DNA of 35,632 bases from a virus. Where the stretch lies: positions 1-35,632 of the IMG/VR virus record IMGVR_UViG_3300036909_000535; one strand, written 5' to 3'. The notes beneath the pieces are model-generated. The model was not told the origin of the DNA, did not search any database, and saw only the letters and a list, made by a program, of their open reading frames with translations. Position numbers and translations under genes: made by a program. Below, in pieces: positions 1-11,069 of this stretch; within the stretch, counting starts at the first letter, position 1; each line of letters starts with the position of its first letter.

Positions 1-69
1 GATCGGGGAAGGCACCCAAGCGATATTTGACAATTGAATACGGAAAACGGCTCCGGCGACGGATGTCAT
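1..69 (-). CDS. Start of a leftward gene, cut by the window edge
   Basis: Only the first 23 codons are present: the ATG lies at 67-69 on the minus strand and the frame stays open to position 1. A strong SD (GAAAGGAAAGG, minus strand, plus positions 77-87) sits 7 bases before the ATG, which is why I call it. The visible residues begin MTSVAGAVFR and give no function. ATGTCAT (63-69) and ATGACAT (92-98) form an inverted repeat, so SD and start codon lie in or next to a hairpin. The gene diverges from the rightward operon, so 70-343 probably holds promoters for both directions. Confidence 0.5.
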   Translation of the reverse strand, partial: MTSVAGAVFRIQLSNIAWVPSPI

Positions 70-343
70 TTTAATACCTTTCCTTTCTCAGATGACATTC
101 GCTACCCGGTCGAATCACCATGTCCCCGCAAACGTCCCCGGCGAAGATCGTCGTGACATTTTTGGGCAGAACGAGCTTGCCCCTGGGATTTACGATGCGG
201 CGAATTGGCCTGGTGTAACACGGCCTCCTGACGGAGGCGCCCAACCTGGGCAACGTTCGGACTGGGAAGCAAGCTGGAGAGTCGGATTCAAAGCGAACCC
301 GCGGGCCTCATAACCCCGCGGGAAGTGTGGTGGGAAAATACAA
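70..343. promoter_or_regulatory. Divergent non-coding leader with several hairpins
   Basis: No convincing gene is seen here. The stretch separates two divergent transcription units and should contain promoters, but I see no clear -35/-10 pair. It is rich in perfect hairpins: GCCTCC/GGAGGC (223-238, loop TGAC), GCCCA/TGGGC (239-251, loop ACC) and CCCGCGGG/CCCGCGGG (298-322, 9-nt loop). The first ribozyme follows immediately at 344, so these hairpins would lie in the 5' leader that it cuts off. Confidence 0.4.
298..322 (+). other. 8-bp GC hairpin upstream of the first ribozyme
   Basis: CCCGCGGG at 298-305 pairs with CCCGCGGG at 315-322 around the loop CCTCATAAC. The arm is self-complementary, so it is both a direct and an inverted repeat. 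No T-tract follows, so it is not an intrinsic terminator. Confidence 0.5.
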
Positions 344-443
344 TTCGTCCTGAAGATGGCTGGTGTGGCACACCGGCCGAAATTTATGCCTGATTGGCGC
401 GAAGCGCAGACACCGCGGAGCGGTGGGAGCATGAATAGGCGAA
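344..443 (+). ncRNA. Type I hammerhead ribozyme, copy 1 (large stem III)
   Basis: Stem I is TTCGTC (344-349) with GGCGAA (438-443). The core is CTGAAGA (350-356) and GAAA (379-382). Stem II is 358-378 with a GGC apex. Stem III starts with A382-T436 and runs 8 bp to C389-G429. Predicted cleavage is after A437. Stem III carries a 39-nt branched extension with two perfect hairpins (397-407 and 411-425), absent from the other copies. All conserved catalytic positions of the family are present. Confidence 0.85.
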
Positions 444-447
444 AGCT

Positions 448-464
448 CAGGTGGAAAGGACCTG
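448..464 (+). promoter_or_regulatory. SD-presenting hairpin 1
   Basis: CAGGT (448-452) pairs with ACCTG (460-464) around the 7-nt loop GGAAAGG, the ribosome binding site of the gene starting at 475. Confidence 0.75.
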
Positions 465-474
465 GTTGAACGAT

Positions 475-876
475 ATGGCAAAAGGAATAGTAGTTCGTTG
501 CGAAGATTGCCAGCATTTGGAAGAGCCCTGCGAGGACTGCCGGGAGGCAATGCAGGATGAGGTCTTGGCCGCGGACTTTTTGCGCGAAGAGACGGATCCG
601 GAAACGGGATGCACTTCCGAAGAAATGGATCCGGTGGGGCCAAACGGGTTGATCGAAACCAGGATCAACGAACTGACCGACGCAGGGTACGACTCGCTGC
701 CAGGCGCGGCCGAGGATGCAAGAACGTCCATGGCCCAGGTGGCCTCGGTGTACGACGAGGATCTGGAATCGGAGCCGCTTCAGTTCAAGGACCTGGTGAG
801 CGAAGCGGACGCGGAAAGCGAGTTCTGCGATTCCCCAGGCTGCCGGTGCAACAGGATTCACGTGAGCGTGGAATGA
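475..876 (+). CDS. Acidic protein with CxxC pairs, unknown function
   Basis: 133 residues. The start is ATG 475, downstream of SD hairpin 1. A GTG at 451 is in frame but lies inside the SD hairpin, so I reject it. The N-terminus has CEDC (about residues 9-12) and CEDC (19-22), a small zinc-knuckle-like arrangement, and the C-terminus has CDSPGCRC, possibly a second metal site. The middle is very acidic. It is the first gene of the ribozyme-punctuated operon, and its stop overlaps the next start (ATGA at 873). Function is not recognised; a small metal-binding or protein-binding phage factor fits. Confidence 0.75.
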   Translation: MAKGIVVRCEDCQHLEEPCEDCREAMQDEVLAADFLREETDPETGCTSEEMDPVGPNGLIETRINELTDAGYDSLPGAAEDARTSMAQVASVYDEDLESEPLQFKDLVSEADAESEFCDSPGCRCNRIHVSVE

Positions 877-1037
877 CACCTAAGACAGGTTCCCCTGTGG
901 TGTTCACCTGCCAATGTTCCCGTTGCGGAAAAAAGATCCCGGTCGGGGAGGCGTTCGTGTTTGGCGACGAAACGCGGCCTTACTGTGAGGATTGCATGGT
1001 GCAGGTGGTGGCGGAAGCCGTTGCGCTTCCGAAGTAG
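873..1037 (+). CDS. Small zinc-ribbon protein
   Basis: 54 residues, starting at ATG 873 inside the ATGA overlap with the upstream gene, so translation is probably coupled. CQCSRC (about residues 13-18) and CEDC (38-41) form a likely four-cysteine zinc ribbon, CxxC-x19-CxxC. Small zinc-ribbon proteins are common in phage early regions and usually have no assigned function. The stop TAG (1035-1037) touches the first base of ribozyme copy 2. The two genes upstream share one ribozyme unit, so this gene has no ribozyme of its own. Confidence 0.7.
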   Translation: MTPKTGSPVVFTCQCSRCGKKIPVGEAFVFGDETRPYCEDCMVQVVAEAVALPK

Positions 1038-1094
1038 TTCGCCCCGATGAAGGCCTGGTGGCGCCAGGTCGAAACGCCGTGAGGCGTCGGCGAA
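1038..1094 (+). ncRNA. Type I hammerhead ribozyme, copy 2 (U4C variant)
   Basis: Stem I TTCGCC (1038-1043)/GGCGAA (1089-1094). Core CCGATGA (1044-1050), where the family has CTGANGA, so position 4 is C instead of U. Stem II 1052-1070 with loop TGGCG. GAAA 1071-1074. Stem III A1074-T1087 plus 4 bp with a GTGA GNRA loop. The cleavage triplet is GTC, with the cut after C1088. It begins at the base after the upstream stop codon. Confidence 0.85.
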
Positions 1095-1098
1095 AGCC

Positions 1099-1115
1099 CC
1101 CGTGGAAAGGACGGG
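1099..1115 (+). promoter_or_regulatory. SD-presenting hairpin 2
   Basis: CCCGT (1099-1103) pairs with ACGGG (1111-1115); the loop is GGAAAGG. It serves the gene at 1128. Confidence 0.75.
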
Positions 1116-1127
1116 TTTACAAACGTT

Positions 1128-1907
1128 ATGGCAAACAAGAACAGAAAAGAAGCAGTTGCAGTCGCGGAAAAATCGCAATTCGTGCCGGTGAAGTTCGACG
1201 AAGCGACGACGGCCGCCATTCGATCCGAGATCCTCGCAAAACTGGAAACTCTGGTAGCGCGGGCGAAAGTCTCGGTGAAGGTCGAGGAATCGGACGACGC
1301 GACGGACTCCGGGTACGTGAGTCTTGGGTTCTCGGTGGACCTGGGAATCGCGGACGGAGACTTCGAGAAGATCGTGGAGCAGGCGCTCGGCAGCCGTCAG
1401 GTGGCGGTCGAGGACTTCGCGGTTACGGCGCCGTATGTGGCCGTGGACCTGGTGTACCGGAACGAAGCCGGCGCGCCGGTTCCCTCGATGCAGACGCTGT
1501 GGATCGAGCGGGCGAAGGACTTCGAGGGTGTGAATCCGGAATGGCTCGGGCGTAAGTATCACGTGCCCGACCCGGACGACGACCTGGATCCCCAGTACCC
1601 GTACGAGTTCACGGTGGTTGGGCTGCGCACGACGGCGAAGAAGACGCCGATCGCGGTCGAGTGCACGGATCCGCTGGGCAACGGCGCGATCGAGTTCTAC
1701 GGCGCCAAGGACCTGGAAGGGTTGCTGGCGGCCGCGGGCGATCGGAAGAAGGCGGAGGCGACCTGGAAGTCGTCGATGAAACCGGCGCACGTGAAGCTGG
1801 TGGAGGAAGCGCGGGTGAAGGCCAAGGAAATTGGCGCGGACGCCGCGTGGGAGGAAGTGTACGCGAAGTGGGAAGCGGCCACGGAGAAGCAGTCGGCCGC
1901 CGCGTAA
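1128..1907 (+). CDS. Unrecognised 259-aa phage protein
   Basis: ATG 1128 follows SD hairpin 2. The first ~60 residues are helical and charged. A middle part (about 60-190) alternates hydrophobic and polar residues and looks like a mixed beta domain. The last ~70 residues are a lysine/glutamate/alanine-rich helix ending in SAAA. No catalytic motif, signal peptide or membrane segment is visible. It is the largest gene of the first 5 kb. Its stop TAA (1905-1907) directly abuts ribozyme copy 3. I do not recognise the family. Confidence 0.8.
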   Translation: MANKNRKEAVAVAEKSQFVPVKFDEATTAAIRSEILAKLETLVARAKVSVKVEESDDATDSGYVSLGFSVDLGIADGDFEKIVEQALGSRQVAVEDFAVTAPYVAVDLVYRNEAGAPVPSMQTLWIERAKDFEGVNPEWLGRKYHVPDPDDDLDPQYPYEFTVVGLRTTAKKTPIAVECTDPLGNGAIEFYGAKDLEGLLAAAGDRKKAEATWKSSMKPAHVKLVEEARVKAKEIGADAAWEEVYAKWEAATEKQSAAA

Positions 1908-1975
1908 TCGCCCTGAAGATGGGGAGTCGGCAACTCCCCGAAAACGGCCCGAAAAGGAGGCGGGCCGTTAGGCGA
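1908..1975 (+). ncRNA. Type I hammerhead ribozyme, copy 3
   Basis: Stem I TCGCC (1908-1912)/GGCGA (1971-1975). Core CTGAAGA (1913-1919). Stem II GGGGAGT/ACTCCCC (1921-1939) with a CGGCA loop. GAAA 1940-1943. Stem III is 9 bp from A1943-T1969. The cut is after A1970. The stem III loop reads AAAAGGAGG, itself an SD-like sequence. It starts right after the upstream stop codon. Confidence 0.85.
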
Positions 1976-1980
1976 AAGCC

Positions 1981-1997
1981 CTCATGGAAAGGATGAG
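1981..1997 (+). promoter_or_regulatory. SD-presenting hairpin 3
   Basis: CTCAT (1981-1985) pairs with ATGAG (1993-1997); loop GGAAAGG. It serves the gene at 2010. Confidence 0.75.
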
Positions 1998-2009
1998 ACA
2001 AACACGAAT

Positions 2010-2240
2010 ATGAAAAGACTACAGAGACAGAACAGAATTCTGCGGAACATGTTGCGCGCGATGGGAGTGGAGTTCAACACCTTCGCCACTACGACCGGGG
2101 CCCTGAGCATTGGGGTTCAGTCAGGGCCTTCGAAGCTGCGCACGATGTTGCGCGAGAAGGCGGACGGCTCGTGGACGGTCAGGAATCCGCGGCCGGGCTA
2201 CAGCCGCAGCGAGCGGTTCCATTTCGAGAACGCGGCATGA
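2010..2240 (+). CDS. Small basic protein, unknown function
   Basis: 76 residues from ATG 2010 after SD hairpin 3. The first ~20 residues form a basic amphipathic helix (MKRLQRQNRILRNMLRAM). The rest is polar with several Arg and Lys, for example RNPRPGYSRSERF near the end. It could bind nucleic acid, but there is no recognisable domain. The stop overlaps a possible short downstream frame (ATGA at 2237). Confidence 0.7.
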   Translation: MKRLQRQNRILRNMLRAMGVEFNTFATTTGALSIGVQSGPSKLRTMLREKADGSWTVRNPRPGYSRSERFHFENAA

Positions 2241-2347
2241 TCCGGCCCTGCGTATGCGGGACATCGGCCACATGCCGGTGTGGTGCCCAGGTAGTGCTCC
2301 TGCGTGGCCGGATTTTTTTGGGCGCGCAGAGAGAATCTTCGCCCTGA
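2237..2347 (+). CDS. Possible 36-aa cysteine-rich peptide
   Basis: An ATGA overlap with the preceding gene opens a 36-codon frame with CVCG and CRCG motifs (CxC-x5-CxC), a plausible single metal site. Without it, 2241-2337 would be the only sizeable unexplained gap between genes and ribozymes in this operon. Its stop TGA (2345-2347) lies inside the catalytic core of ribozyme copy 4, as also happens at copies 6 and 9. That fits the local pattern and supports the call, but the frame is short and could be chance. Confidence 0.4.
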   Translation: MIRPCVCGTSATCRCGAQVVLLRGRIFLGAQRESSP

Positions 2348-2404
2348 AGAGGCTTCCGTGGCGCGGAAGCGAAATGCCCCCAAGAAGTAGGGGGCATAGG
2401 CGAA
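2338..2404 (+). ncRNA. Type I hammerhead ribozyme, copy 4
   Basis: Stem I TTCGCC (2338-2343)/GGCGAA (2399-2404). Core CTGAAGA (2344-2350). Stem II GCTTCCG/CGGAAGC (2352-2370), loop TGGCG. GAAA 2371-2374. Stem III is 8 bp, A2374-T2397 to C2381-G2390. The cut is after A2398. Confidence 0.87.
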
Positions 2405-2408
2405 AGCC

Positions 2409-2425
2409 CGGCTGGAAAGGAGCCG
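2409..2425 (+). promoter_or_regulatory. SD-presenting hairpin 4
   Basis: CGGCT (2409-2413) pairs with AGCCG (2421-2425); loop GGAAAGG. It serves the gene at 2438. Confidence 0.75.
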
Positions 2426-2437
2426 AATCAAACGAAC

Positions 2438-2824
2438 ATGGCAAACAATAAAGTGATGGTGAGAGAGCGTCCGGACTGCGATGTGTGCAGGGCGGAGGAT
2501 CAACAGACGCCGGCGTTGTACAGCGCGAAGCTCCCCGGATGGGGCGGCATGTGCTGGGCAAACCTGTGCCAGGTGCATTTCGACGGCCTGGGCTGCCGAT
2601 TGGGATTGGGCACGGGTCAGGCGCTGGTGAAGGATACCAGGAATCGTCTTCCCGTCCAGGAAAAAATCCGCCTGGAGGATCTGGTGGAACCGCTGAAGGA
2701 ACACGCGATCGGCGGCCAGCATCACGAAGCGCTCCAGGGCGCTATCGTGGTGGACGTCTTTGTGGTGGCGTTGACCCCGGTCGAGGTTATGGTACTGGCG
2801 GCGCTCAACAACCTGGAATGGTAG
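2438..2824 (+). CDS. Phage zinc-finger protein, paralogue of the gene at 4947
   Basis: 128 residues from ATG 2438. Residues ~13-55 hold CDVC, then a segment ending GGMCWANLCQVHF, then a glycine-rich LGLGTGQAL stretch. The gene at 4947 has the same order: CDFC, GPWRNMC..HF, GVGIGHGQRL. I take the two as paralogues of a small phage zinc-binding family that I have seen only as hypothetical proteins. The C-terminal half differs, with a hydrophobic helix near residues 105-125. The stop TAG (2822-2824) abuts ribozyme copy 5. Confidence 0.78.
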   Translation: MANNKVMVRERPDCDVCRAEDQQTPALYSAKLPGWGGMCWANLCQVHFDGLGCRLGLGTGQALVKDTRNRLPVQEKIRLEDLVEPLKEHAIGGQHHEALQGAIVVDVFVVALTPVEVMVLAALNNLEW

Positions 2825-2886
2825 TTCGCCCCGATGATGGCCGGATGGCTTCCGGCCGAAATCCCCCGCTCAGGGGGATAGGCGAA
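2825..2886 (+). ncRNA. Type I hammerhead ribozyme, copy 5 (U4C variant)
   Basis: Stem I TTCGCC (2825-2830)/GGCGAA (2881-2886). Core CCGATGA (2831-2837). Stem II GGCCGGA/TCCGGCC (2839-2857), loop TGGCT. GAAA 2858-2861. Stem III A2861-T2879 plus 6 bp, loop GCTCA. The cut is after A2880. Confidence 0.83.
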
Positions 2887-2890
2887 AGCT

Positions 2891-2907
2891 GGGCTTGAAA
2901 GGAGCTC
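2891..2907 (+). promoter_or_regulatory. SD-presenting hairpin 5
   Basis: GGGCT (2891-2895) pairs with AGCTC (2903-2907, one G-U); loop TGAAAGG. The ATG is only 3 bases past the stem, at 2910. Confidence 0.7.
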
Positions 2908-2909
2908 TT

Positions 2910-3113
2910 ATGAAACGTGAAATGAAACTCTGCTGGCTTGGGCTTTTTGTCTTCGTTATTGCGTTTGCAATCCTGGATAGTCTTGAGCATCCAAATGCCT
3001 CGCAAACTGACAGGCATGTTTGGCGAGAAGCTACCTCCGAGAGAGCTAAACGCAATAGTGAATTCGACAAGGCTCTCCGGGAAAATGAAGAGGAAAGAAA
3101 TTCGCCCCGATGA
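2910..3113 (+). CDS. Small membrane-anchored protein
   Basis: 67 residues from ATG 2910. After a short basic start (MKREMK), residues ~7-22 (LCWLGLFVFVIAFAIL) form one membrane segment or an uncleaved signal anchor. The remaining ~45 residues are charged and probably helical. By the positive-inside rule the tail would face outward. Function unknown. The stop TGA (3111-3113) is the last three bases of the CCGATGA core of ribozyme copy 6, so a terminating ribosome would sit on the ribozyme. Confidence 0.72.
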   Translation: MKREMKLCWLGLFVFVIAFAILDSLEHPNASQTDRHVWREATSERAKRNSEFDKALRENEEERNSPR

Positions 3114-3160
3114 GTTCCTGTAGCGCAGGGACGAAACCGCCAGACAAGGCGGTCGGCGAA
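3101..3160 (+). ncRNA. Type I hammerhead ribozyme, copy 6 (U4C variant)
   Basis: Stem I TTCGCC (3101-3106)/GGCGAA (3155-3160). Core CCGATGA (3107-3113), whose last bases are the upstream stop codon. Stem II GTTCCTG/CAGGGAC (3114-3132), loop TAGCG. GAAA 3133-3136. Stem III A3136-T3153 plus 5 bp, loop AGACAA. The cut is after C3154 (GTC). Confidence 0.85.
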
Positions 3161-3164
3161 AGCT

Positions 3165-3181
3165 CCGGTGGAAAGGACCGG
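3165..3181 (+). promoter_or_regulatory. SD-presenting hairpin 6
   Basis: CCGGT (3165-3169) pairs with ACCGG (3177-3181); loop GGAAAGG. It serves the gene at 3192. Confidence 0.75.
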
Positions 3182-3191
3182 CTAAAAGATT

Positions 3192-3659
3192 ATGATGGTC
3201 GAATTTGAAGATCATTGCGAACGGAATCGGACCGATCTGCTGGCATATTTGGACAGGAGTGAGAAAGCAATGGCAAAACGAAACGAAGCGCAGTTGGAAT
3301 CCGAGGAACTGGCACGGGCGGAAAAGCAGATGCAAAATCGCCTGTTGGCAATCCCCGCCAGGTATCACGGCATAAACCTGCTACTGGCGCCCTGCTACGA
3401 GGTGCGTCTACATCCAGGCGAGCAGGGGATCGGCATGGTGTACAAAGTGGGGGCCAGCAGGTTCTATGCCGTGCCGGTGAACCACCAGGAGATGTGTTAC
3501 GAGGACGCATCGTTGGAACTGGTGATTGCTTGGCTGTACGGCAAGCAGGGTGTTGGGATCGAAGTGGAGGAACAGCGGAAGACTCTGGCGAAACTGGAGG
3601 GCCAGAGAGCGTTTTTCGCTGGAGATGATCCTGAAGGAAACGCTGCGGACACCTTGTAA
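3192..3659 (+). CDS. Coiled-coil protein, unknown function
   Basis: 155 residues from ATG 3192; a second ATG follows at 3195. Residues ~1-55 are a charged helix rich in Glu, Arg, Lys and Gln (EKAMAKRNEAQLESEELARA), likely coiled coil. Residues ~60-115 look globular with mixed strands. Another charged helix comes near 120-140 (EEQRKTLAKLEGQRAFF). No catalytic motif is seen. The stop TAA (3657-3659) abuts ribozyme copy 7. Confidence 0.77.
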   Translation: MMVEFEDHCERNRTDLLAYLDRSEKAMAKRNEAQLESEELARAEKQMQNRLLAIPARYHGINLLLAPCYEVRLHPGEQGIGMVYKVGASRFYAVPVNHQEMCYEDASLELVIAWLYGKQGVGIEVEEQRKTLAKLEGQRAFFAGDDPEGNAADTL

Positions 3660-3718
3660 TCGTCCTGAAGAGTTCGGGCGGCGCCCGGATGAAACCGGCC
3701 TCTACAGCCGGTAGGCGA
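3660..3718 (+). ncRNA. Type I hammerhead ribozyme, copy 7
   Basis: Stem I TCGTC (3660-3664)/GGCGA (3714-3718). Core CTGAAGA (3665-3671). Stem II 3672-3690, 8 bp with a GGC triloop. GAAA 3691-3694. Stem III A3694-T3712 plus 5 bp, loop CTCTACA. The cut is after A3713. It starts right after the upstream TAA. Confidence 0.85.
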
Positions 3719-3723
3719 AAGCC

Positions 3724-3740
3724 AAGCTGGAAAGGAGCTT
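3724..3740 (+). promoter_or_regulatory. SD-presenting hairpin 7
   Basis: AAGCT (3724-3728) pairs with AGCTT (3736-3740); loop GGAAAGG. It serves the gene at 3745. Confidence 0.72.
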
Positions 3741-3744
3741 TGAA

Positions 3745-4089
3745 ATGGCAACAATACCAACAGAATTGACGAATGCCCAAATCACGCTTGTAAAGCTGAG
3801 AACCTGGGCTAGATCGATCGCGCGCCTGTCATTGGTGATGATGGCGGCCCGGTCTCTCGCAGAATGGGATGACGCGCAAACCTACATGGCGGAGCTGCTG
3901 GAACAGGCAGGAGATGCAATGGATCAAACGACTCCCGAGGAACAAGGCTTTGTTGGGAATCACAAGAAGTTGCAACCCAAGGAGGAGTTGCTGGCCCGCG
4001 GCGACCGGTTGTGGGAAGCTTTGCATAATTCTTGTGGCCTGGCCCTGTACCAGGAGCCCGGCGAAAAGCCATGGGAAGAAACGGAGTAG
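3745..4089 (+). CDS. Helical protein, unknown function
   Basis: 114 residues from ATG 3745. Composition and heptad spacing suggest an all-helical protein: helices about 8-40 (LVKLRTWARSIARLSLVMMAARSL), 42-57 and 78-100. There are no cysteines before residue 97 and no membrane segment long enough to be convincing, although residues 25-36 are hydrophobic. The stop TAG (4087-4089) abuts ribozyme copy 8. The family is not recognised. Confidence 0.75.
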   Translation: MATIPTELTNAQITLVKLRTWARSIARLSLVMMAARSLAEWDDAQTYMAELLEQAGDAMDQTTPEEQGFVGNHKKLQPKEELLARGDRLWEALHNSCGLALYQEPGEKPWEETE

Positions 4090-4156
4090 TTCGCCCCGAA
4101 GAGAACCTGGTGGCTCCAGGTCGAAATGGCCGGCCGGGAGGCCCGCCATAGGCGAA
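4090..4156 (+). ncRNA. Type I hammerhead ribozyme, copy 8 (U4C variant)
   Basis: Stem I TTCGCC (4090-4095)/GGCGAA (4151-4156). Core CCGAAGA (4096-4102). Stem II ACCTGG/CCAGGT (4105-4121), loop TGGCT, with a weak A-C closing step. GAAA 4123-4126. Stem III A4126-T4149 plus 4 bp, a C-C mismatch, then GGCC/GGCC. The cut is after A4150. Confidence 0.8.
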
Positions 4157-4160
4157 AGCT

Positions 4161-4177
4161 AGGCTGGAAAGGAGCCT
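4161..4177 (+). promoter_or_regulatory. SD-presenting hairpin 8
   Basis: AGGCT (4161-4165) pairs with AGCCT (4173-4177); loop GGAAAGG. It serves the gene at 4185. Confidence 0.75.
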
Positions 4178-4184
4178 TTGAAAA

Positions 4185-4523
4185 ATGGCAACAAGAGTGG
4201 CTATCACCATGCTGGTGCCCGATCCGGGCGCCGTGGTGACCGAGTATTTGCGGTACGCCGGGGTCGTGAGTGTTTACAGCATCATGCACACCGGGCGGCC
4301 CCCCATGGCGGTAGAAGGCAGGTTCGCGGATCGGGGGATGGTGTTGAAAGGAACGCATATCCTGCTGACCATGTATATGCAAGTAGGATTGGAAACGCAA
4401 GCGTTCTGGGTCACGCAACAGATCGATAGGCTGAAGAGCTTTCATGTGGCTGCGGTTGCATGGAAGGAAACCCACAGCTCAATCACGATCTTGGGAGACA
4501 CAAGAGCGGAAATTTCGTCCTGA
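4185..4523 (+). CDS. Unrecognised 112-aa protein
   Basis: ATG 4185 follows SD hairpin 8. The sequence alternates strands and helices: hydrophobic strand-like pieces at about 4-12 (RVAITMLVP), 26-33, 57-68 and 88-104, with two helices between them. No cysteine cluster, catalytic motif or clear membrane segment is seen. The stop TGA (4521-4523) is inside the CTGAAGA core of ribozyme copy 9, as at copies 4 and 6. Confidence 0.72.
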   Translation: MATRVAITMLVPDPGAVVTEYLRYAGVVSVYSIMHTGRPPMAVEGRFADRGMVLKGTHILLTMYMQVGLETQAFWVTQQIDRLKSFHVAAVAWKETHSSITILGDTRAEISS

Positions 4524-4576
4524 AGATGGGCCGGTGGGCGCCGGCTCGAAACCTCCCGCACAGGGAGGTAGGCGAA
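4514..4576 (+). ncRNA. Type I hammerhead ribozyme, copy 9
   Basis: Stem I TTCGTC (4514-4519)/GGCGAA (4571-4576). Core CTGAAGA (4520-4526), containing the upstream stop. Stem II GGGCCGG/CCGGCTC (4528-4547), loop TGGGCG. GAAA 4548-4551. Stem III A4551-T4569 plus 6 bp, loop GCACA. The cut is after A4570. Confidence 0.87.
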
Positions 4577-4581
4577 AGCCT

Positions 4582-4598
4582 CGCGGAGAAAGGACGCG
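4582..4598 (+). promoter_or_regulatory. SD-presenting hairpin 9
   Basis: CGCG (4582-4585) pairs with CGCG (4595-4598), extended by a possible T-G pair; loop GAGAAAGGA. It serves the gene at 4605. Confidence 0.65.
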
Positions 4599-4604
4599 GT
4601 GAAC

Positions 4605-4781
4605 ATGGCAAAAATTCATTTGCAGGACCAAAGGTTGTTTATCAATGCAGGCATGCGCTTTCCGGCGTGCTACGCAAAGGCTGAGCTGTTGGATACAGAT
4701 AAGTCCAGGCTTCCTTCCACGTCGGACCCGAAGCGGGTAACCTGTGGGAAGTGCCAGCGCCTGGCGAAGAGAAGAAAGTAG
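4605..4781 (+). CDS. Small CxxC protein
   Basis: 58 residues from ATG 4605; GTG 4599 in frame is less likely because other genes of this operon also start with AACATGGCAAA. CGKC near the C-terminus (about residues 47-50) with Cys22 could make a partial zinc site. The tail is basic (QRLAKRRK). It is the last gene of the contiguous ribozyme run; the next two starts use ordinary SD sites. Confidence 0.65.
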   Translation: MAKIHLQDQRLFINAGMRFPACYAKAELLDTDKSRLPSTSDPKRVTCGKCQRLAKRRK

Positions 4782-4788
4782 GGGCGGC

Positions 4789-4971
4789 ATGGCCAATTCT
4801 ATTGAGTATGAGGTGGAAGTGAAAGGAACGGATCGGTTGTATGGTCCGTATTCAAACAGAAAAGCCGCCAAAGATACGGCCCTTTCGACAGGGTATTCCT
4901 GCATTATCTGGCGGCGTAGTCGGGTCGCCTTGGAGGAGGTACCACCATGCACGGTGAAGAAAGAACAGTAG
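4789..4971 (+). CDS. Small protein, unknown function
   Basis: 60 residues from ATG 4789, 7 bases after the previous stop, with a G-rich weak SD (GGGGCGG). The first half looks like a beta hairpin followed by a helix (EYEVEVKGTDRLYGPYSNRKAAKDTALS). Its 3' end carries the GGAGG site of the next gene and overlaps it by 25 bases. No family is recognised. Confidence 0.65.
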   Translation: MANSIEYEVEVKGTDRLYGPYSNRKAAKDTALSTGYSCIIWRRSRVALEEVPPCTVKKEQ

Positions 4972-5678
4972 AGAAACTTCCCCCTTGCGATTTTTGCAAG
5001 CACAAGAAGGACCGCGACCAGCGGCTGTTGGCGCGGTACGACGGCATCACAAAGGCCGGCCCTTGGCGGAATATGTGCCTGGGGCATTTTAAGGAGCACG
5101 GCGTGGGCGTCGGGATCGGCCACGGGCAGAGATTGTGGCTCAGAACGGAACAGCACCTGAACGGTGAGGTTCCCGTCATTGAGTTGCCGCCTGTCCAAGT
5201 CAACCAGGTATCGGCAGAGTGCGATATCTGCGGAAAGCCTTGGTTCGTCAAGGTGCTGGAGTATTTCGCGGGGAAGGGTTACTGCCCTATGTGCCTCCGC
5301 GAGTGCTTCCCGGTCCGGAAGGAAGGGCCATTCACGTTCGGAGACATCGTTGTGGCCATGTATCCTTGGCCAGGTGATGATGCCGGCGAATATATCGGCC
5401 GGGTCTTGGAAATTCCGGAGCAGAACGTGCTGAAGATCCGCTTTGAGTATGAAGAGGCGGAGCCGGAAGACGTGTTGATGGCAAGGGACGGCCTTGGCGG
5501 CTGGTGGGATACGGACAACGAGAGATCGGGCATAGCGATCCGGCTCGGGGTCCGGGAGGAAGCCGAGGAATACGAGAGGCTGCGCAAGGCTCGAATCGGA
5601 GGTTACAACGAAGGAAGGCCCACACAGCGGCAGGTTGCGCCGTGGGGAGGTCAGGCAGGGTTATTCGAGGAGGTGTAA
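4947..5678 (+). CDS. Double zinc-finger protein with SH3-like domain and QxxLF tail
   Basis: 243 residues. The start ATG 4947 has SD GGAGG about 10 bases upstream. Residues 14-61 form the CDFC...GPWRNMC..HF...GHGQRL finger shared with the gene at 2438. A second finger is CDIC (92-95) and CPMC (113-116). Residues ~128-175 (FTFGDIVVAMYPW...EYIGRVLEI) resemble a small SH3/Tudor-like barrel, also suggested in the protein at 6095. The tail has QAGLF at 236-240, matching the QxxLF sliding-clamp motif. The context and fingers suggest a nucleic-acid-linked role, which is inference. The stop overlaps the next ATG (TAATG). Confidence 0.75.
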   Translation: MHGEERTVEKLPPCDFCKHKKDRDQRLLARYDGITKAGPWRNMCLGHFKEHGVGVGIGHGQRLWLRTEQHLNGEVPVIELPPVQVNQVSAECDICGKPWFVKVLEYFAGKGYCPMCLRECFPVRKEGPFTFGDIVVAMYPWPGDDAGEYIGRVLEIPEQNVLKIRFEYEEAEPEDVLMARDGLGGWWDTDNERSGIAIRLGVREEAEEYERLRKARIGGYNEGRPTQRQVAPWGGQAGLFEEV

Positions 5679-5947
5679 TGGCGCATCATTTTTTCGCGAT
5701 TGGAAAAGACAACAGATACAATTTGGGAGCGGGGGCGGCAGCGCCCGCTCATCACCGCGGCGCCGGTCGTAGCACGGCGACGGTGGAAGTCCCCACAAAG
5801 AAAGGGCCGAAGGAAGTGAAGGTGACTTCGGTTCTACACAGGCCGCCCTGGTTTCAACAACAGGTCGAGCGGCAGCAACGGAAACAAAAGAACCTGTTCG
5901 GGCGGATTGCAGACAAGCTGCGATCGCTGATGAATCGCCCGGAATAG
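5678..5947 (+). CDS. Small basic protein with QxxLF motif
   Basis: 89 residues from ATG 5678, which overlaps the upstream TAA; SD GAGGAGG lies just before. The N-terminal ~30 residues are Gly/Ala/His-rich and flexible, followed by a basic strand region (VPTKKGPKEVKVTSV). The C-terminal third is a basic helix containing QKNLF at residues 70-74, again QxxLF, then RIADKLRSLMNR. It looks like a small adaptor or DNA-binding factor; function unproven. Confidence 0.7.
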   Translation: MAHHFFAIGKDNRYNLGAGAAAPAHHRGAGRSTATVEVPTKKGPKEVKVTSVLHRPPWFQQQVERQQRKQKNLFGRIADKLRSLMNRPE

Positions 5948-6060
5948 GCAGGTAGTGGCGCGGTTCGCAGCCGCGTCTTGGGCGCGGGACCCATCCCGGA
6001 CGAAAGTCTCTCGGCGAGGAACACGTCGAGCGCGCCCAAGAGACGGCTGCGATTCGAAGG
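5948..6060 (+). ncRNA. Unidentified structured RNA in the ribozyme position
   Basis: Between a stop codon and SD hairpin 10, where the other units have a hammerhead, this segment folds differently. The outer stem TCGCAGCCG/CGGCTGCGA pairs 5965-5973 with 6044-6052. The inner stem CTTGGGCGCG/CGCGCCCAAG pairs 5977-5986 with 6031-6040. The apical region can form GAC-GAAA-GTC (5999-6008) and CTC-GGC-GAG (6010-6018). No CTGANGA core is present, so it is not a hammerhead. It may be another ribozyme class, a regulatory RNA or a remnant. Confidence 0.5.
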
Positions 6061-6069
6061 CAGCAGTCT

Positions 6070-6086
6070 GGGGTGGAAAGGACCCC
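6070..6086 (+). promoter_or_regulatory. SD-presenting hairpin 10 (no hammerhead upstream)
   Basis: GGGGT (6070-6074) pairs with ACCCC (6082-6086); loop GGAAAGG, identical in design to the ribozyme-linked copies. Confidence 0.75.
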
Positions 6087-6094
6087 TGATGAAC

Positions 6095-6976
6095 ATGGCA
6101 AAGAAAAAACCGGAAGGGGAGTTCGCCACAAAACTGGTGGGCGCTCTGGAAGGGAAGAAGGTAATCAAGAAAAAGGAGCCGCCCAAGGTGGTTCCCGTGG
6201 CGACGGATTCCACTCCGCCACCAGATACTCTGCCGGCGCTGGCAACGCTGAAAGGGCTACGGGCGGGCGATCTGATTACGGTCGCGTACGCGATGGAGCC
6301 GGGGCGCATTCCCGGCGTGTATGGCGCGGAAGTGGTGACCGTTTCTCAGGACGGCGCCGATGCGTCAATCAAGTTCCTGTTCCCGAACAAACCGCCCCGT
6401 GCAGGCTCTTTGAAAGTGGCGGAGAGGTTGACCAAGCGGCGCGAAAATGGCCGGGGGGTCAGCACTGAGATCATCGATGCCAACGATGAGCGCGTAGTGA
6501 TAGTGAAACGGCCCAATAAGGAGCAGCGGGATGCTCTCGAAGGCATCCGGTCCAGTTCGGCGCAGCGTTCGCCGGACAAAGCCGCCCTCAAGGTAGGCGA
6601 CGTGGCCGCGCTCGTGTACCCCAAAGTTACGGGGGACGGGGATTGGGCGCCCGGTGTGGTTCTCGCGCAAGTCCAGGAGATCGGGAAGGACGGCCACTTC
6701 AAAGTGGTGACCTATAATCCCGACTACCTGGAGGAGGGCGAGGATCCGGCGTATGCCGTGGAGACTGTGGAGCTGATCCGGAGCAACAGCGGAGAATACA
6801 CGGACAGCACTTACAAATGCCGGCTGGCGATGGTGCGCAAGCCGACACCCGGCGAGCTCTCTGATTTTGAGGAGAACCGCAAGGCGGTAGTATCCCGGAA
6901 GGCGATTCCGAATGCTCCCAAACCCGCCAAACAGCAACAGAGTTTGTTTCCCTCCGCTCCCACGTCCGCGGCGTAG
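6095..6976 (+). CDS. Lysine-rich protein with two beta-barrel-like segments and QxxLF tail
   Basis: 293 residues. I choose ATG 6095 (context AACATGGCAAA as in sister genes) over in-frame ATG 6089. Residues 1-45 are basic, Pro-rich and disordered. Two segments beginning with a GD motif, about 58-97 (AGDLITVAYAM...) and 167-228 (VGDVAALVYPKV...APGVVLAQV), look like SH3/Tudor-type barrels. The C-terminal tail has QQSLF at 281-285, fitting QxxLF. With its two upstream neighbours it forms a trio that may interact with a DNA clamp; this is inference. An intrinsic terminator follows the stop. Confidence 0.75.
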   Translation: MAKKKPEGEFATKLVGALEGKKVIKKKEPPKVVPVATDSTPPPDTLPALATLKGLRAGDLITVAYAMEPGRIPGVYGAEVVTVSQDGADASIKFLFPNKPPRAGSLKVAERLTKRRENGRGVSTEIIDANDERVVIVKRPNKEQRDALEGIRSSSAQRSPDKAALKVGDVAALVYPKVTGDGDWAPGVVLAQVQEIGKDGHFKVVTYNPDYLEEGEDPAYAVETVELIRSNSGEYTDSTYKCRLAMVRKPTPGELSDFEENRKAVVSRKAIPNAPKPAKQQQSLFPSAPTSAA

Positions 6977-7002
6977 TTGGCTGCACGCGTGAGCTTTCGC
7001 CG

Positions 7003-7039
7003 CCTGGCCGGGGACGCCATGCCCCGGCCAGGAATTTTT
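7003..7039 (+). terminator. Intrinsic terminator in front of the last ribozyme
   Basis: Perfect 11-bp stem CCTGGCCGGGG (7003-7013) / CCCCGGCCAGG (7022-7032) with an 8-nt loop, then AA and five T (7035-7039). The T-tract overlaps the first bases of ribozyme copy 10, so only read-through transcripts contain that ribozyme and the gene at 7124. Confidence 0.75.
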
Positions 7040-7092
7040 CGCCCTGAAGAGGATTCGGAGGCTCCGAGTCGAAACACGAGACGTGTAGGCGA
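7038..7092 (+). ncRNA. Type I hammerhead ribozyme, copy 10
   Basis: Stem I TCGCC (7039-7043)/GGCGA (7088-7092). Core CTGAAGA (7044-7050). Stem II 8 bp, 7052-7070, with a GGC triloop. GAAA 7071-7074. Stem III A7074-T7086 plus 3-4 bp with an AGA loop. The cut is after A7087. The 3' product starts GGCGATAGCC instead of GGCGAAAGCY. Confidence 0.85.
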
Positions 7093-7097
7093 TAGCC

Positions 7098-7114
7098 CCC
7101 GGAGAAAGGCCGGG
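7098..7114 (+). promoter_or_regulatory. SD-presenting hairpin 11
   Basis: CCCGG (7098-7102) pairs with CCGGG (7110-7114); loop AGAAAGG. It serves the gene at 7124. Confidence 0.7.
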
Positions 7115-7123
7115 ACAAAACAG

Positions 7124-8209
7124 ATGAATGATTTGAAGATTCACGTAAGTGAGCTGGACAATCCTTATGGAGAGGTGATCCAGCGGGCGCTGGCGCGCGA
7201 GTTTCCAGGGTCGAACCGCGGTGACAAGGCGACGACGTTGGAGCTGGTGGCAGCCGAGATCATCGGAACGAACCAGTCGAGGTTCGGACCGGCGCCCAAT
7301 CCGGAAAGCCTGGTGGCGATTCGAGCGGTCCTGCGGAAGCATATCGAGGAGGGGTCTCCGATCCCGTTCCTGGTGCCGTGGGGCAGCAAGAAGCCTATCA
7401 ATGGCGAGAGCGTGGATGTGGCGGAGCTGATGGGGTTGAAGACTCTCCAGTGCCTCCAGGGACGCGTGCGGCGCTATTACGAGCCGGGCCTGCGGATGAA
7501 CATGCGGATCGAGGACGTGGGCGGCAAGTACCTCTTCAAGTCGGAAGGGGACGCGGCGCTCCGGTCGAGCGAGACGTATGTTCGCGATTTCCTCGCCCTG
7601 GTGGACGTGCTGAACTTCCGCTTCCTGCGTCCGGTGCTGGAGAGCGCGTTGATGGACCCGAAGGAGTACGACTTCCAAGCGGGCACGTTGGCGCCGGTCT
7701 TCCAGTTGTATCTGGAGCGGACGGATCTCTACGGCATCCAGCCAGGTCCAAGCGAGCTGACCGACATCGGTTGGCAGGGCTTGATTCCCCAAGAGCAGAG
7801 GGACTTCTACCGGCACCAGTACGCCAAGTGGTTTCCCGGCATGCCCATTAAGGAACAGACCTGGAAGCTGGCCGAGTATCTGGCCGGCGCTCTCGCGCGG
7901 CACAAGCTCCGGGGAACCGGCGCGGAGCCGGAGTGGGGGCGGGATTTCATCCAGCTCAATTTCGCACAGCCGGCGCCGGGGACTCCGCAGGGCATCGCGG
8001 AGCGGCGGATCCACTACCGGACTGTGCCGCTGCGCTTCGCCGCGACCCATGTTCCGCCGTGGCGCGCGAAGGGCTACCTGAAGGTCGGAGACAGCGAGGC
8101 GTACCCCAAGATTACGAGCTGGTACGAGTCGGGCACGTACAACCAGTGCTCGGTCGAGTTCAGCCGCGCGGGGGCGTCGGTGTCGGTGCGCTCCGATTAC
8201 AAAGTGTGA
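7124..8209 (+). CDS. 361-aa protein, possibly related to the DIT1/PvcA family
   Basis: ATG 7124 follows SD hairpin 11; the frame is open further upstream but runs through the ribozyme. Residues ~79-140 contain PIPFLVPWGSKKP, DVAELMGLKTLQ, YYEPGLRMNMRIED and GGKYLF. The order (P-F-x-x-P...K-x-P, D-x-x-E-L, Y-x-P-G followed by a strand with a D/G turn) recalls isocyanide synthases of the DIT1/PvcA family. The rest (WGRDFIQLNFAQ, RRIHYRTVPLRFAATHVPPW) was not placed. The resemblance is by eye only; it may be an unrelated phage protein. It sits after a terminator and is the last ribozyme-linked gene. Confidence 0.75.
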   Translation: MNDLKIHVSELDNPYGEVIQRALAREFPGSNRGDKATTLELVAAEIIGTNQSRFGPAPNPESLVAIRAVLRKHIEEGSPIPFLVPWGSKKPINGESVDVAELMGLKTLQCLQGRVRRYYEPGLRMNMRIEDVGGKYLFKSEGDAALRSSETYVRDFLALVDVLNFRFLRPVLESALMDPKEYDFQAGTLAPVFQLYLERTDLYGIQPGPSELTDIGWQGLIPQEQRDFYRHQYAKWFPGMPIKEQTWKLAEYLAGALARHKLRGTGAEPEWGRDFIQLNFAQPAPGTPQGIAERRIHYRTVPLRFAATHVPPWRAKGYLKVGDSEAYPKITSWYESGTYNQCSVEFSRAGASVSVRSDYKV

Positions 8210-8216
8210 GGTGAAC

Positions 8217-8369
8217 ATGTTTCCGTTGCCGCCGGAGTTCGACAAACTGCCGCCAGACCCGCCGTGGTTCTGGCCGGCCATGGCCATCACGCAACTGATG
8301 GTCTACGGTGGAGGCCTGCTGTACGTGTGGTGGGTCTGCCGCAGAGGAAAGAAAAAATCGCCCAAGTGA
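8217..8369 (+). CDS. 50-aa single-span membrane protein
   Basis: ATG 8217, 7 bases after the previous stop, with SD GAGGTGA. A Pro-rich N-terminus (PLPPEFDKLPPDPPWFWP) precedes one hydrophobic segment, about residues 21-40 (AMAITQLMVYGGGLLYVWWV), and a basic tail CRRGKKKSPK, suggesting N-out, C-in topology. The size and layout fit a holin-like or accessory lysis protein, but no lysis gene is adjacent on this strand. Function open. Confidence 0.6.
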   Translation: MFPLPPEFDKLPPDPPWFWPAMAITQLMVYGGGLLYVWWVCRRGKKKSPK

Positions 8370-8385
8370 AGGAAAGGAAAAGAAC

Positions 8386-8586
8386 ATGCAAGAGGACATT
8401 CATTCGAGCATCACGCAGGACCGTATAGTAGAGGCCGTTCAGGAAGACGACAACAGAGGGTTCTGTATCTCCTGTGGGGCAGAAGCCTTCGGCGTAGAGC
8501 CAGACGCGCGTAAGTACACTTGCGAGGTATGCGGGGCTGCACAGGTGTACGGAGCGGAAGAACTGCTCATCATGACGGTGGCGTGA
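8386..8586 (+). CDS. Phage zinc-ribbon protein
   Basis: 66 residues from ATG 8386, with SD GGAAAGGAAAAG. Residues ~27-48 hold CISC...CEVC (CxxC-x13-CxxC) within the context CGAEAFGVEPDARKYTCEVC followed by VYGAEELL. This pattern is familiar from many phage hypothetical proteins. It is probably a structural zinc ribbon; the role is unknown. The stop overlaps the next start (TGATG). Confidence 0.8.
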   Translation: MQEDIHSSITQDRIVEAVQEDDNRGFCISCGAEAFGVEPDARKYTCEVCGAAQVYGAEELLIMTVA

Positions 8587-8804
8587 TGGGGTACGCCTTG
8601 GGAACGGCGCCGTGCATCGGGTGCGGCCAACCGTTCACGTTCAACCCGATGAAGGTTCCCTCGGTTCGCGTCAATGACGTGAGGGAGCCGATCTGTGAGA
8701 ATTGCGTAAACAGATTCAACCCAATCAGAATTGCCAAAGGCCTGGAACCGATCGTTCCCCTTCCAGGCGCATATGAAGCCTGCAACGAAGAGGAGCTGGC
8801 CTAA
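8586..8804 (+). CDS. Phage zinc-ribbon protein with FNP/VPS motif
   Basis: 72 residues from ATG 8586, coupled to the upstream stop. CIGC (residues 10-13) and CENC (37-40) flank the segment FTFNPMKVPSVRVNDVREPI, then NRFNPIRIAKGLEPI and an acidic end. This combination recurs in tailed-phage hypothetical proteins, so the gene is confidently real although its job is not known. The stop overlaps the next start (TAATG). Confidence 0.8.
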   Translation: MGYALGTAPCIGCGQPFTFNPMKVPSVRVNDVREPICENCVNRFNPIRIAKGLEPIVPLPGAYEACNEEELA

Positions 8805-8941
8805 TGACGCGCAAACTGTATTGCAGCCAGTGTGAAATCCTGGCGATCAACAACGTCCCGTGTCACGAGCAGGGATGTCCGAACGCGAAAAAGTACCCGA
8901 AGGGCAACGAAGTTCCGCCCTGGCGAAAGAGAAAAAAATGA
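8804..8941 (+). CDS. 45-aa zinc-finger-like protein
   Basis: ATG 8804 overlaps the previous stop, and its own stop overlaps the next ATG (ATGA at 8938), so it is locked into a coupled chain. CSQC (about 7-10) and C.EQGC (20-25) give four cysteines of a possible zinc site. The C-terminus is basic (PPWRKRKK). Similar tiny proteins are frequent in phage early operons. Confidence 0.65.
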   Translation: MTRKLYCSQCEILAINNVPCHEQGCPNAKKYPKGNEVPPWRKRKK

Positions 8942-9387
8942 GCAAAGAAAGAATCAGGATTCGCGGTGTGGCACACGACCATTACCGCGACGTCTTGAAA
9001 AAACCCGCGCCAGGGCAATCCCGAGTGAAAAACGATCCATGTGTACTGTTCGGGTCTGAGGACTATCACGAACTGGCGCGCCATTTGTTGATGGAGATTC
9101 ACGACGCCTATGCCGGCGCCGTTACTTTCTTCTGGTTGAACAACGCGCCATACCAGCCGGAAGAAGAGTTCGACTGGTTCGTAGCGGGCCGTGCGTTCGG
9201 CTGTGTGCGCCGTCTGGAACATGGCGGGCAGGGCACGTGGCAAGACATGCAGCTAGCCTGGCTGGACGATCTGCACCGGGCATACGACGAGTGTGGGTAC
9301 AGCAGGGAGGTGGAACTGGACGGCGGCGCGGTAATGCCGTTGGAGCATGTTCTGCACCTGATGTCGGTTTGTAGAGGAGGCAAGTGA
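8938..9387 (+). CDS. Unrecognised 149-aa protein
   Basis: The start ATG 8938 lies in an ATGA overlap; the frame is open upstream, but coupling decides the start. The N-terminus is basic (MSKERIRIRGVAHDHYRDVL). The middle is rich in aromatics and acids (TFFWLNNAPYQPEEEFDWFVAGRAFG), with predicted helices at about 45-60 and 105-120. There is no cysteine cluster or catalytic motif I can name. The downstream SD AGAGGAGG is inside its last codons. Confidence 0.72.
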   Translation: MSKERIRIRGVAHDHYRDVLKKPAPGQSRVKNDPCVLFGSEDYHELARHLLMEIHDAYAGAVTFFWLNNAPYQPEEEFDWFVAGRAFGCVRRLEHGGQGTWQDMQLAWLDDLHRAYDECGYSREVELDGGAVMPLEHVLHLMSVCRGGK

Positions 9388-9389
9388 AC

Positions 9390-9638
9390 ATGGAAATTCC
9401 GCTGGTGGAAGACGAAAAGAAAATCCCTAAAGGCGCGCGCTGCCAGGAAGCATCGCCGATGTCACGTAGATTGTATATTCCGTGCGGAGCGCCCGCCGTG
9501 GCGATAGTGTACCACGACCGCGACAAGCGCAGCTACTATATGTGCGTTCCCTGTGCGGACCACAACTGTCGAAATCGTGGCGGCCGTCTGATGATGAGCA
9601 CGAACAAGGAGATGGAGAGGAGGTACTTGAAAAAATGA
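9390..9638 (+). CDS. Cysteine-rich zinc-binding protein
   Basis: 82 residues. ATG 9390 is 9 bases after GAGGAGG; GTG 9384 would be only 3 bases away. Metal ligands are probably Cys16, Cys29 and CVPC...CRNRG (about 48-57) in a pattern typical of phage proteins that bind one zinc (Y-x-MCVPCADHN-x-x-NRGG). The C-terminus is a short basic helix. The stop overlaps the next ATG (ATGA at 9635). Confidence 0.72.
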   Translation: MEIPLVEDEKKIPKGARCQEASPMSRRLYIPCGAPAVAIVYHDRDKRSYYMCVPCADHNCRNRGGRLMMSTNKEMERRYLKK

Positions 9639-10024: not shown

Positions 10025-10069
10025 AAAAATAGGCCGGGCCCTCGGAGGATTGGGACCCGGCCTATTTTT
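10025..10069. terminator. Bidirectional intrinsic terminator
   Basis: AATAGGCCGGG pairs with CCCGGCCTATT around the loop. The stem has A-rich sequence on its left and T-rich sequence on its right, so it works on both strands. It separates the rightward operon ending at 10024 from the leftward operon ending at 10089. Confidence 0.9.
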
Positions 10070-10088
10070 ATGTCCGCCCGGCGCCCGG

Positions 10089-10253: not shown

Positions 10254-10281
10254 GTTGTGCTCCTTTCCGCGGGCCGCTTTT

Positions 10282-11058: not shown

Positions 11059-11069
11059 GATGGTTCCTT

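Follow-up and report, generated by a model that had tools for sequence, protein, structure and literature searches.

In operons of T7-type phages, host RNase III cuts hairpins at gene boundaries and divides the message into smaller mRNAs. Clustered hammerhead ribozymes of prophages flank single genes or short gene blocks and have been proposed to cut long phage RNAs (Perreault et al., 2011; PMC3088659). In the portions of that paper used here, loop pseudoknots are described for the clustered hammerheads, in vitro tests cover three arrangements and a test in E. coli covers one, the cluster size stated is three (A. tumefaciens), and an intergenic hammerhead of Pseudomonas phage PaP3 is listed among the active ones.

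The window analyzed here, 35,632 nucleotides in length, is the tailed-phage contig IMGVR_UViG_3300036909_000535, which encodes terminase, portal, and head genes and carries ten type I hammerhead ribozymes on the + strand at its left end. Multiple same-strand hammerheads that flank phage genes or short blocks, the arrangement by which phage hammerhead clusters are recognized, are found in this array, and the likeness to the clusters of 2011 comprises several hammerheads close together beside phage genes, a proposed cutting of RNA, and, as a candidate feature here, loop pseudoknots. In contrast to the stated cluster of three, however, ten members, all of type I, occur here in 6.7 kb and share one leader hairpin design. 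T7-type processing resembles the proposed role of the array in that a phage operon would be cut at gene boundaries, by a protein there and by predicted ribozymes here. An earlier note on this DNA had called such a series not standard. This needs qualification, because clustered phage hammerheads with a proposed role in mRNA cutting have been known since 2011, but the long row with its shared leader looks unusual: no series of ten hammerheads that have a leader hairpin in common was found in the literature searched, which consisted of open-access titles and beginnings of abstracts and few full texts.

The reading that we prefer, with a probability of about 0.78 judged from sequence, is that a cassette of stop codon, ribozyme, leader, and start codon is repeated along the gene row and that the ribozymes would divide a long transcript into mRNAs that each carry one gene or a few. 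Once transcribed, each ribozyme would cleave itself 3' of H17, which is where the proposed cuts (437/438 to 7087/7088) fall in all ten copies. Stems II and III and a 2',3'-cyclic phosphate would be left at the end of the upstream mRNA, and the downstream mRNA would start with 5'-OH-GGCGAAAGCY followed by the Shine-Dalgarno (SD) hairpin, giving uniform ends. What we infer is cleavage, the chemistry of the ends, the separation of the mRNAs, and possible effects on how stable they are or how well they are translated; the array would in that case offer a natural example of how a polycistronic message is divided into uniform units. Its structures and positions, read directly from the sequence, are as follows.

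344..447, + strand: hammerhead copy 1; U4, A17; long branched stem III; predicted cut 437/438; matched by models R1 and R2
438..464, + strand: leader 1; GGCGAAAGCT and SD hairpin, loop GGAAAGG; ATG at 475
1038..1098, + strand: hammerhead copy 2; C4, C17; predicted cut 1088/1089; upstream TAG ends at 1037
1089..1115, + strand: leader 2; ATG at 1128
1907..1980, + strand: hammerhead copy 3; U4, A17; predicted cut 1970/1971; upstream TAA ends at 1907
1971..1997, + strand: leader 3; ATG at 2010
2338..2408, + strand: hammerhead copy 4; U4, A17; predicted cut 2398/2399; core holds the TGA stop of a 36-aa ORF
2399..2425, + strand: leader 4; ATG at 2438
2825..2890, + strand: hammerhead copy 5; C4, A17; predicted cut 2880/2881; upstream TAG ends at 2824
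2881..2907, + strand: leader 5; ATG at 2910; the hairpin can form, but the minimum-energy fold of the product differs
3101..3164, + strand: hammerhead copy 6; C4, C17; loop AGC, tail GCU; predicted cut 3154/3155; TGA of the upstream ORF in the core
3155..3181, + strand: leader 6; ATG at 3192
3659..3723, + strand: hammerhead copy 7; U4, A17; predicted cut 3713/3714; upstream TAA ends at 3659
3714..3740, + strand: leader 7; ATG at 3745
4090..4160, + strand: hammerhead copy 8; C4, A17; stem II bulge; predicted cut 4150/4151; upstream TAG ends at 4089
4151..4177, + strand: leader 8; ATG at 4185
4514..4580, + strand: hammerhead copy 9; U4, A17; predicted cut 4570/4571; TGA of the upstream ORF in the core; not a seed of R1
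4571..4599, + strand: leader 9; 9-nt loop; ATG at 4605; heads four ORFs
5948..6060, + strand: hammerhead-less slot; long hairpin with branches, candidate processing element
6070..6086, + strand: SD hairpin of the hammerhead-less slot; GGGGU / GGAAAGG / ACCCC; before the gene at 6095
6993..7001, + strand: GCTTTCGCC, complementary to GGCGAAAGC at the start of the leader
7003..7032, + strand: terminator-like hairpin; 11 pairs and a T-run, directly upstream of copy 10
7038..7097, + strand: hammerhead copy 10; U4, A17; GGCGAT; predicted cut 7087/7088; behind the terminator-like hairpin
7088..7114, + strand: leader 10; GATA in place of GAAA; ATG at 7124

The regular expression that located the ten copies required no pairing. 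A pattern built on the leader, of which the hammerhead core was not a part, matched nine times in the window against a mean of 0.00 in 100 shuffles; a full hammerhead core stands directly ahead of all nine matches, and copy 5 was missed through one letter. Model R1, whose seeds include eight of the ten copies, returned exactly ten matches at E ≤ 1.1e-11 (next 0.059). The covariance model R2 was seeded with 14 hammerheads from other phages and no array copy, and it recovered all ten with E-values between 1.3e-15 and 7.5e-9 (0.6 for the next window match), although it is not fully independent because its seeds were found with patterns modelled on window copies. The ten type I hammerheads put forward in the earlier note all lie where it placed them.

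In an Rfam scan of the whole window (E ≤ 10), no hammerhead passed its cut-off. Rfam was also run on seven other loci, locally, and by family. The 34-bit cut-off of Hammerhead_1 (RF00163) was reached by none of nine records, and the 56.3-bit cut-off of RAGATH-1 (RF03152), likewise a hammerhead ribozyme family, by none of 22, the best window scores of 23.6-23.9 bits lying far below it. A chance or low-complexity resemblance to hammerheads would fit this result. However, Rfam reports no hammerhead in PaP3 either, a phage with a published active one, so that the negative speaks of the models' reach and says little about the array; Rfam was set aside as a test after PaP3 came out blank. As the E-values of R2, free of array seeds, and the covariation described below both stand strongly against a chance resemblance, we consider it hardly credible. 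R1 found one distant match in PaP3 at E ≤ 1 (20.5 bits; 45,400 of 45,503 bases searched), which may or may not be the hammerhead listed by Perreault et al. (PMC3088659). Like the array copies, this match is intergenic, has a stop codon directly before stem I, and has the type I layout, but it differs in the sequence of stem I and lacks the AGCY tail.

All copies have three stems around the core, open at stem I and closed by loops on II and III. Stem I follows in general the TTCGYC/GGCGAA given in the earlier note, except that the 5' strand reads A/TTCGYC and the 3' strand of copy 10 is GGCGAT. The core C3 U4 G5 A6 N7 G8 A9 ... G12 A13 A14, A15.1-U16.1, H17 is complete in six of the ten copies; the other four (1038, 2825, 3101, 4090) have C4, a natural variant known from other hammerheads, instead of the consensus U4 and otherwise conform. 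In the pairing as drawn here, A9 and stem II are separated by one additional nucleotide in seven copies, and copy 8 is bulged.

Support for selection on structure, as claimed earlier, comes from the stems. When arms were swapped among the ten copies, pairing fell from 98% to 58% in stem II and from 100% to 45% in stem III, and none of 20000 permutations reached the observed value. An alignment with other phages (A2) comprises 25 of the 37 rows of a larger alignment, A1 (made without window copy 344 and L112 1588), the dropped rows being misaligned or of unlike stem length. In A2, 82 cells are changed on both sides against 19.5 in shuffles, and 94.7% of cells are paired against 76.7%, a percentage inflated because the rows from other phages had passed a paired-stem filter. 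That the core is invariant in A2 carries no weight, because a core was demanded by the patterns used for searching. Stems II and III thus covary. Unconstrained folds contain both stems in 10/10 copies; stem I keeps its hammerhead register in 7/10, and in the remaining three (344, 3659, 4514) the minimum-energy fold moves it into core bases.

A17 is found in eight copies and may weaken hammerhead cutting. The commonest core (U4 with C17) occurs in none of the ten window copies, compared with 21/29 and 30/40 hammerheads of other phages (two overlapping sets), and in one of six in a divergent relative. For the array phages together this is 1/16 against 21/29 elsewhere (p 2.3e-5 on the assumption of independent copies, which may not hold); both counts were tallied by hand, and the 29 are distinct rows outside the array phages, with L102 and L138 in and L304-L306 out. 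In the portions of the paper used here, U4C considerably lowers activity in vitro, yet a viroid carrying it stays infectious (Perreault et al., PMC3088659). The departure of every window copy from this commonest core, whether at U4 or at H17, would suit structured intergenic elements that have lost cutting, either mRNA-stabilizing hairpins or degenerate ribozymes, and one copy per gene boundary also suits 3' stabilizers. Plain hairpins, however, would not need the rest of the hammerhead core, which is kept at each of the nine leader-pattern matches. Moreover, copy 1 differs in stems II and III between two near-identical phages with pairing kept and the core unchanged. A loss of cutting is therefore very improbable.

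Upstream stop codons touch or lie inside the ribozyme in eight of nine cases tested; five of these stops end at -1 or 0 of stem I, and three lie in the core. Together with the core bias, this would fit regulated or attenuated switches, in which a ribosome at the stop on stem I would keep the ribozyme unfolded, cutting would track upstream translation, and weaker cores would keep cut and uncut messages together. We regard such switches as unlikely: other phages also have stops at the stem I edge, in 16 of 28 hammerheads, the majority of which carry the commonest core (hand tally, loose ORF test), the array copies may share descent so that the bias may represent one event, and a weakening by A17 is presumed.

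Of 16 ORFs called, ten directly follow a hammerhead and one follows another element, and four are headed by copy 9; the gene-by-gene series of the earlier note holds for the ten and does not extend to all 16. Nor does every copy lie between two genes, as had been stated, because copy 1 lies in the leader region, where the only preceding + strand ORF is a doubtful one of 73 aa (92-313), and because a terminator-like hairpin separates copy 10 from the gene before it.

The leader that each predicted cut would release, an element absent from the earlier note, measures 27-29 nt, in line with the uniform 5' end predicted earlier, and consists of GGCGAAAGCY (once GGCGATAGCC) and a hairpin with the SD sequence in its loop, 29-39 nt separating cut and start codon. 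The hairpin is present behind 10/10 copies, and its arms are 100% paired against 44% when swapped (15 hairpins); the hairpins were placed for best pairing, and 7.4% of random flanks contain a stem of at least 5 by chance. The same SD word occurs without a hairpin at other genes of the phage, for example after 8372, 25758, and 26297. A selected GNRA hairpin in the product (GGC-GAAA-GCY) was considered as well; it is found in 9/10 window copies, but the loop varied in a wider search, and selection is not claimed. With two loop letters left free and the tail fixed to AGCC, 50 stem-paired hammerheads had AA 25, AT 18, GA 5, AG 1, and TG 1.

In a search that left the tail free, 44 of 49 rows came through the stem filter. 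Of these stem-paired hammerheads, 43 have an AGCY tail behind stem I, as do 26/27 outside the array phages. This conserved tail can pair with loop II. The combinations of loop and tail are GGC-AGCC 26, GGC-AGCT 9, AGC-AGCT 6, and AGC-AGCC 0; loop RGC with tail GCY thus is found in 41/44 and the A-C combination in none (p 0.0011, copies treated as independent). Taken by itself, A2 gives weak support to the loop-tail pairing, which 49 of 500 shuffles reach.

Two related records carry the system: a near-identical 100-kb relative with ten hammerheads, and the divergent relative, in which R2 recovers six, the sixth without this leader hairpin. A search by protein for further relatives gave only these two known records among the matches listed. 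Elsewhere, 58 records searched whole contain at most three or four hammerheads each. A first pattern scan gave 44 stretches, three of which were inspected (L012, L025, L043), and a strict regular expression across the loci then collected matched only these three and the window's own copies; among loci L052-L157, 100 of 106 were searched. Relatives of the gene at 4947 were matched in 18 records of cultured actinophages, and four of these, searched whole, had no credible hammerhead (best E 0.057). In bacterial genomes, R1 found none at E ≤ 0.001 in 80 of at least 119 pattern stretches, which is not a survey.

The gene at 6095 has the same SD hairpin, but a different long hairpin (5948-6060) replaces the hammerhead. 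The folding z is -4.25 for 5945-6105, and in the divergent relative the corresponding slot holds a different long hairpin that is differently branched. Local Rfam scans of the slot gave no family above cut-off; a pattern search for homologues gave eight stretches, and only the two known relatives carry the element. It could be a site of T7-type processing by host RNase III, which is likelier than a self-cleaving ribozyme of an undescribed class with the same job as the hammerheads, a rather improbable candidate. Together, the ten-member row, the two related records, the shared leader, the core variants, and this odd slot would provide a single system for testing gene-by-gene mRNA processing.

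Because of the terminator-like hairpin between copies 9 and 10, one transcript for all ten is not assured. A scan for terminator-like sites found 8 against 11.4 expected in shuffles and alone proves nothing. The divergent relative has a like hairpin at the same place as 7003-7032, and GCTTTCGCC, which occurs once on the + strand of the window, precedes the hairpin there too.

The 35,632-base record carries terminase, portal and major head genes as assigned by PHROGs, and is therefore a tailed phage. Ten type I hammerheads lie on its plus strand, all in the first 7.1 kb of the window, and the core regular expression and two covariance models agree on the positions that an earlier note had proposed for them. 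The features discussed below are:

344, 1038, 1907, 2338, 2825, 3101, 3659, 4090, 4514 and 7038 (starts), plus strand: hammerhead copies 1 to 10
1-90, minus strand: leftward start codon
873-1037: gene between copies 1 and 2
5948-6060: slot ahead of the gene at 6095
6993-7001, plus strand: GCTTTCGCC
10014-10079: long GC-rich hairpin

The first covariance model (R1; 25 hammerhead seeds, eight from the window) returned exactly ten window matches at E ≤ 1.1e-11, the next match having 0.059. The second (R2), intended to reduce circularity, was built from 14 seeds, all from other phages; the patterns by which these seeds had originally been picked up were themselves based on the window copies. R2 matched 10/10 copies with E-values between 1.3e-15 and 7.5e-9, the best further window match having 0.6. 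A pattern for the downstream leader only, leaving the core unconstrained, had nine window matches versus a mean of 0.00 in 100 shuffles, and a hammerhead core stands directly ahead of all nine. Unconstrained minimum-energy folds contain stems II and III in 10/10 copies. Seven of these folds also place stem I in the hammerhead register, and those of the copies at 344, 3659 and 4514 favour a shifted stem I that includes core bases. Of nine upstream stop codons tested, five touch stem I and three fall inside the core; the last lies 62 bases off, with a terminator-like hairpin in between. The array seems to begin at a divergent intergenic region, because the leftward start codon in 1-90 is accompanied by the Shine-Dalgarno word GAAAGGAAAGG.

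Selection on structure, as had been suggested earlier, is supported. In the ten copies, which were found by a regular expression demanding no pairing, stem II is 98% paired and stem III 100%; with arms swapped among the copies these values fall to 58% and 45%. In an alignment of 25 hammerheads kept out of 37 rows (A2), 94.7% of cells are paired versus 76.7% in shuffles, a percentage inflated because the rows from other phages had been pre-filtered for paired stems; both sides changed in 82 cells versus 19.5 in shuffles, and 28 to 45% stayed paired when the partner columns were offset by one, two or three positions. Finally, a near-identical phage (G001) shares 99.99% identity over window positions 1033-12000, and in its copy 1 the sequences of stems II and III differ with pairing kept.

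Loop II carries RGC, and GCY is found just past stem I. A search with the tail unconstrained gave 49 rows, of which five failed the stem filter; among the 44 stem-paired hammerheads, an AGCY tail is present in 43, including 26 of 27 outside the array phages (the window, G001 and a divergent relative, G002). Loop and tail combine as GGC-AGCC (26), GGC-AGCT (9), AGC-AGCT (6) and AGC-AGCC (0), with three hammerheads (L055, L096, L307) outside all four groups. The association has a Fisher p of 0.0011 with copies counted as independent, though some share descent, and it is weak on A2 alone, where 49 of 500 shuffles reach it. Perreault et al. (PMC3088659) predicted stem I/stem II pseudoknots in about 40% of the hammerheads they examined.

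In seven window hammerheads, as paired here, one additional nucleotide separates A9 from stem II, a feature reminiscent of a 2001 viroid hammerhead paper. The window cores carry C4 in 4/10 and A17 in 8/10 copies, and A17 probably weakens cutting. The commonest core, U4 with C17, occurs in 0/10 window copies and 1/6 in G002, versus 21/29 (hand tally; p = 2.3e-5, computed without regard to shared descent) and 30/40 in two overlapping sets from other phages. U4C considerably decreases activity in vitro and still permits viroid infectivity (Perreault et al., PMC3088659).

The earlier note overlooked a common leader element. The RNA 3' of each proposed cut starts with GGCGAAAGCY (GGCGATAGCC in copy 10), followed by a 5-bp hairpin whose loop, 7 nt long except in copy 9 (9 nt), presents GGAAAGG or a closely similar word; the leader totals 27-29 nt, and the start codon lies 29-39 nt from the cut. 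The arms covary, 100% being paired versus 44% when swapped, in a set of 15 made up of the ten window hairpins, four from a relative and the one in the slot before 6095; hairpin placement maximised pairing, and stems of ≥5 arise by chance in 7.4% of random flanks. Both hairpins appear in the minimum-energy fold of 8/10 predicted cleavage products; products 1 and 5 fold otherwise. GAAAGG occurs 28 times on the plus strand, 13 times with a stem of 4 or more: in the ten leaders, the slot, and at 4346 and 26273, where, as read, no start codon directly follows. The genes after 8372, 25758 and 26297 have the same Shine-Dalgarno word without a hairpin. In the divergent phage, the hairpin accompanies 5/6 hammerheads, and the sixth lacks the word.

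Ahead of the gene at 6095 the Shine-Dalgarno hairpin is present and the hammerhead is replaced by a long branched hairpin (z -4.25). The homologous gene of the divergent phage (protein identity 61%, or 57% in the ORF comparison) is likewise preceded by a Shine-Dalgarno hairpin and by a long hairpin unlike that of the window (z -4.66). In the slot, no match to an Rfam family attains the family's cut-off; a host RNase III site or an unknown ribozyme would fit; bacterial self-cleaving ribozymes have been reported near other self-cleaving ribozymes (PMC10085705).

The array phages stand out in hammerhead number among 61 whole records scanned with R1 (23 + 39, one shared). G001 (100,369 bases) has ten copies at E ≤ 1, all within 74.3-80.9 kb, and G002 (27,678 bases) has six strong matches plus one opposite-strand match (E 0.44). 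The other 58 records, some near-duplicates, have at most three matches each at E ≤ 0.001, with a weak fourth in G008 (E 0.011). Longer arrays of other hammerhead types may exist elsewhere, because the records were sampled on the sequence of stem I and many of them are fragmentary. Among 16 window ORFs compared, those at 2010, 4947 and 6095 have G002 homologues (41, 60 and 57% identity), ORF 2438 matches the same G002 homologue as 4947, at 31%, and 12 have no G002 homologue at E ≤ 1e-3. The gene at 873-1037 is absent from G001, so a gene has been gained or lost between copies 1 and 2; its ORF (54 aa, several cysteines) overlaps the stop of the preceding gene. Two genes inside the array, 2438-2824 and 4947-5678, belong to the uncharacterised family phrog_23287, and in a phage that is otherwise different a further member (L108, 3294-3608) immediately follows a hammerhead. 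No credible hammerhead emerged from four cultured actinophages that have relatives of the gene at 4947.

Sequence comparison establishes the array's structure, covariation, stop-to-start position, common leader and relatives. Each hammerhead RNA would cut itself, leaving a downstream mRNA that begins with a 5'-OH and the leader and an upstream mRNA ending in stems II and III; the outcome would be gene-sized mRNAs. Perreault et al. 2011 (PMC3088659, section 6) describe prophage hammerheads clustered round single genes and propose the same role for them. The array is therefore a variation on a known kind: its length, the hairpin in the leader and the slot with a different element had no counterpart in the literature examined. 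A single transcript for all ten copies is not assured, because a terminator-like hairpin precedes copy 10. It has 11 pairs and is the strongest of eight such window sites; since shuffles exceed this count (11.4), the case for it lies in its 11 pairs and a like hairpin in the relative.

Just ahead of this hairpin, and at the same place in the divergent phage, stands GCTTTCGCC, complementary to the leader start GGCGAAAGC and found only once on the plus strand of the window; it is possibly an antisense or an alternative stem I. The hairpin at 10014-10079 has T-runs, is matched by an unrelated microRNA model and looks like a two-way terminator. In another locus (L084), a Twister-P5 ribozyme (1404-1456; 56.8 bits) lies on the same strand about 250 bases behind a hammerhead.
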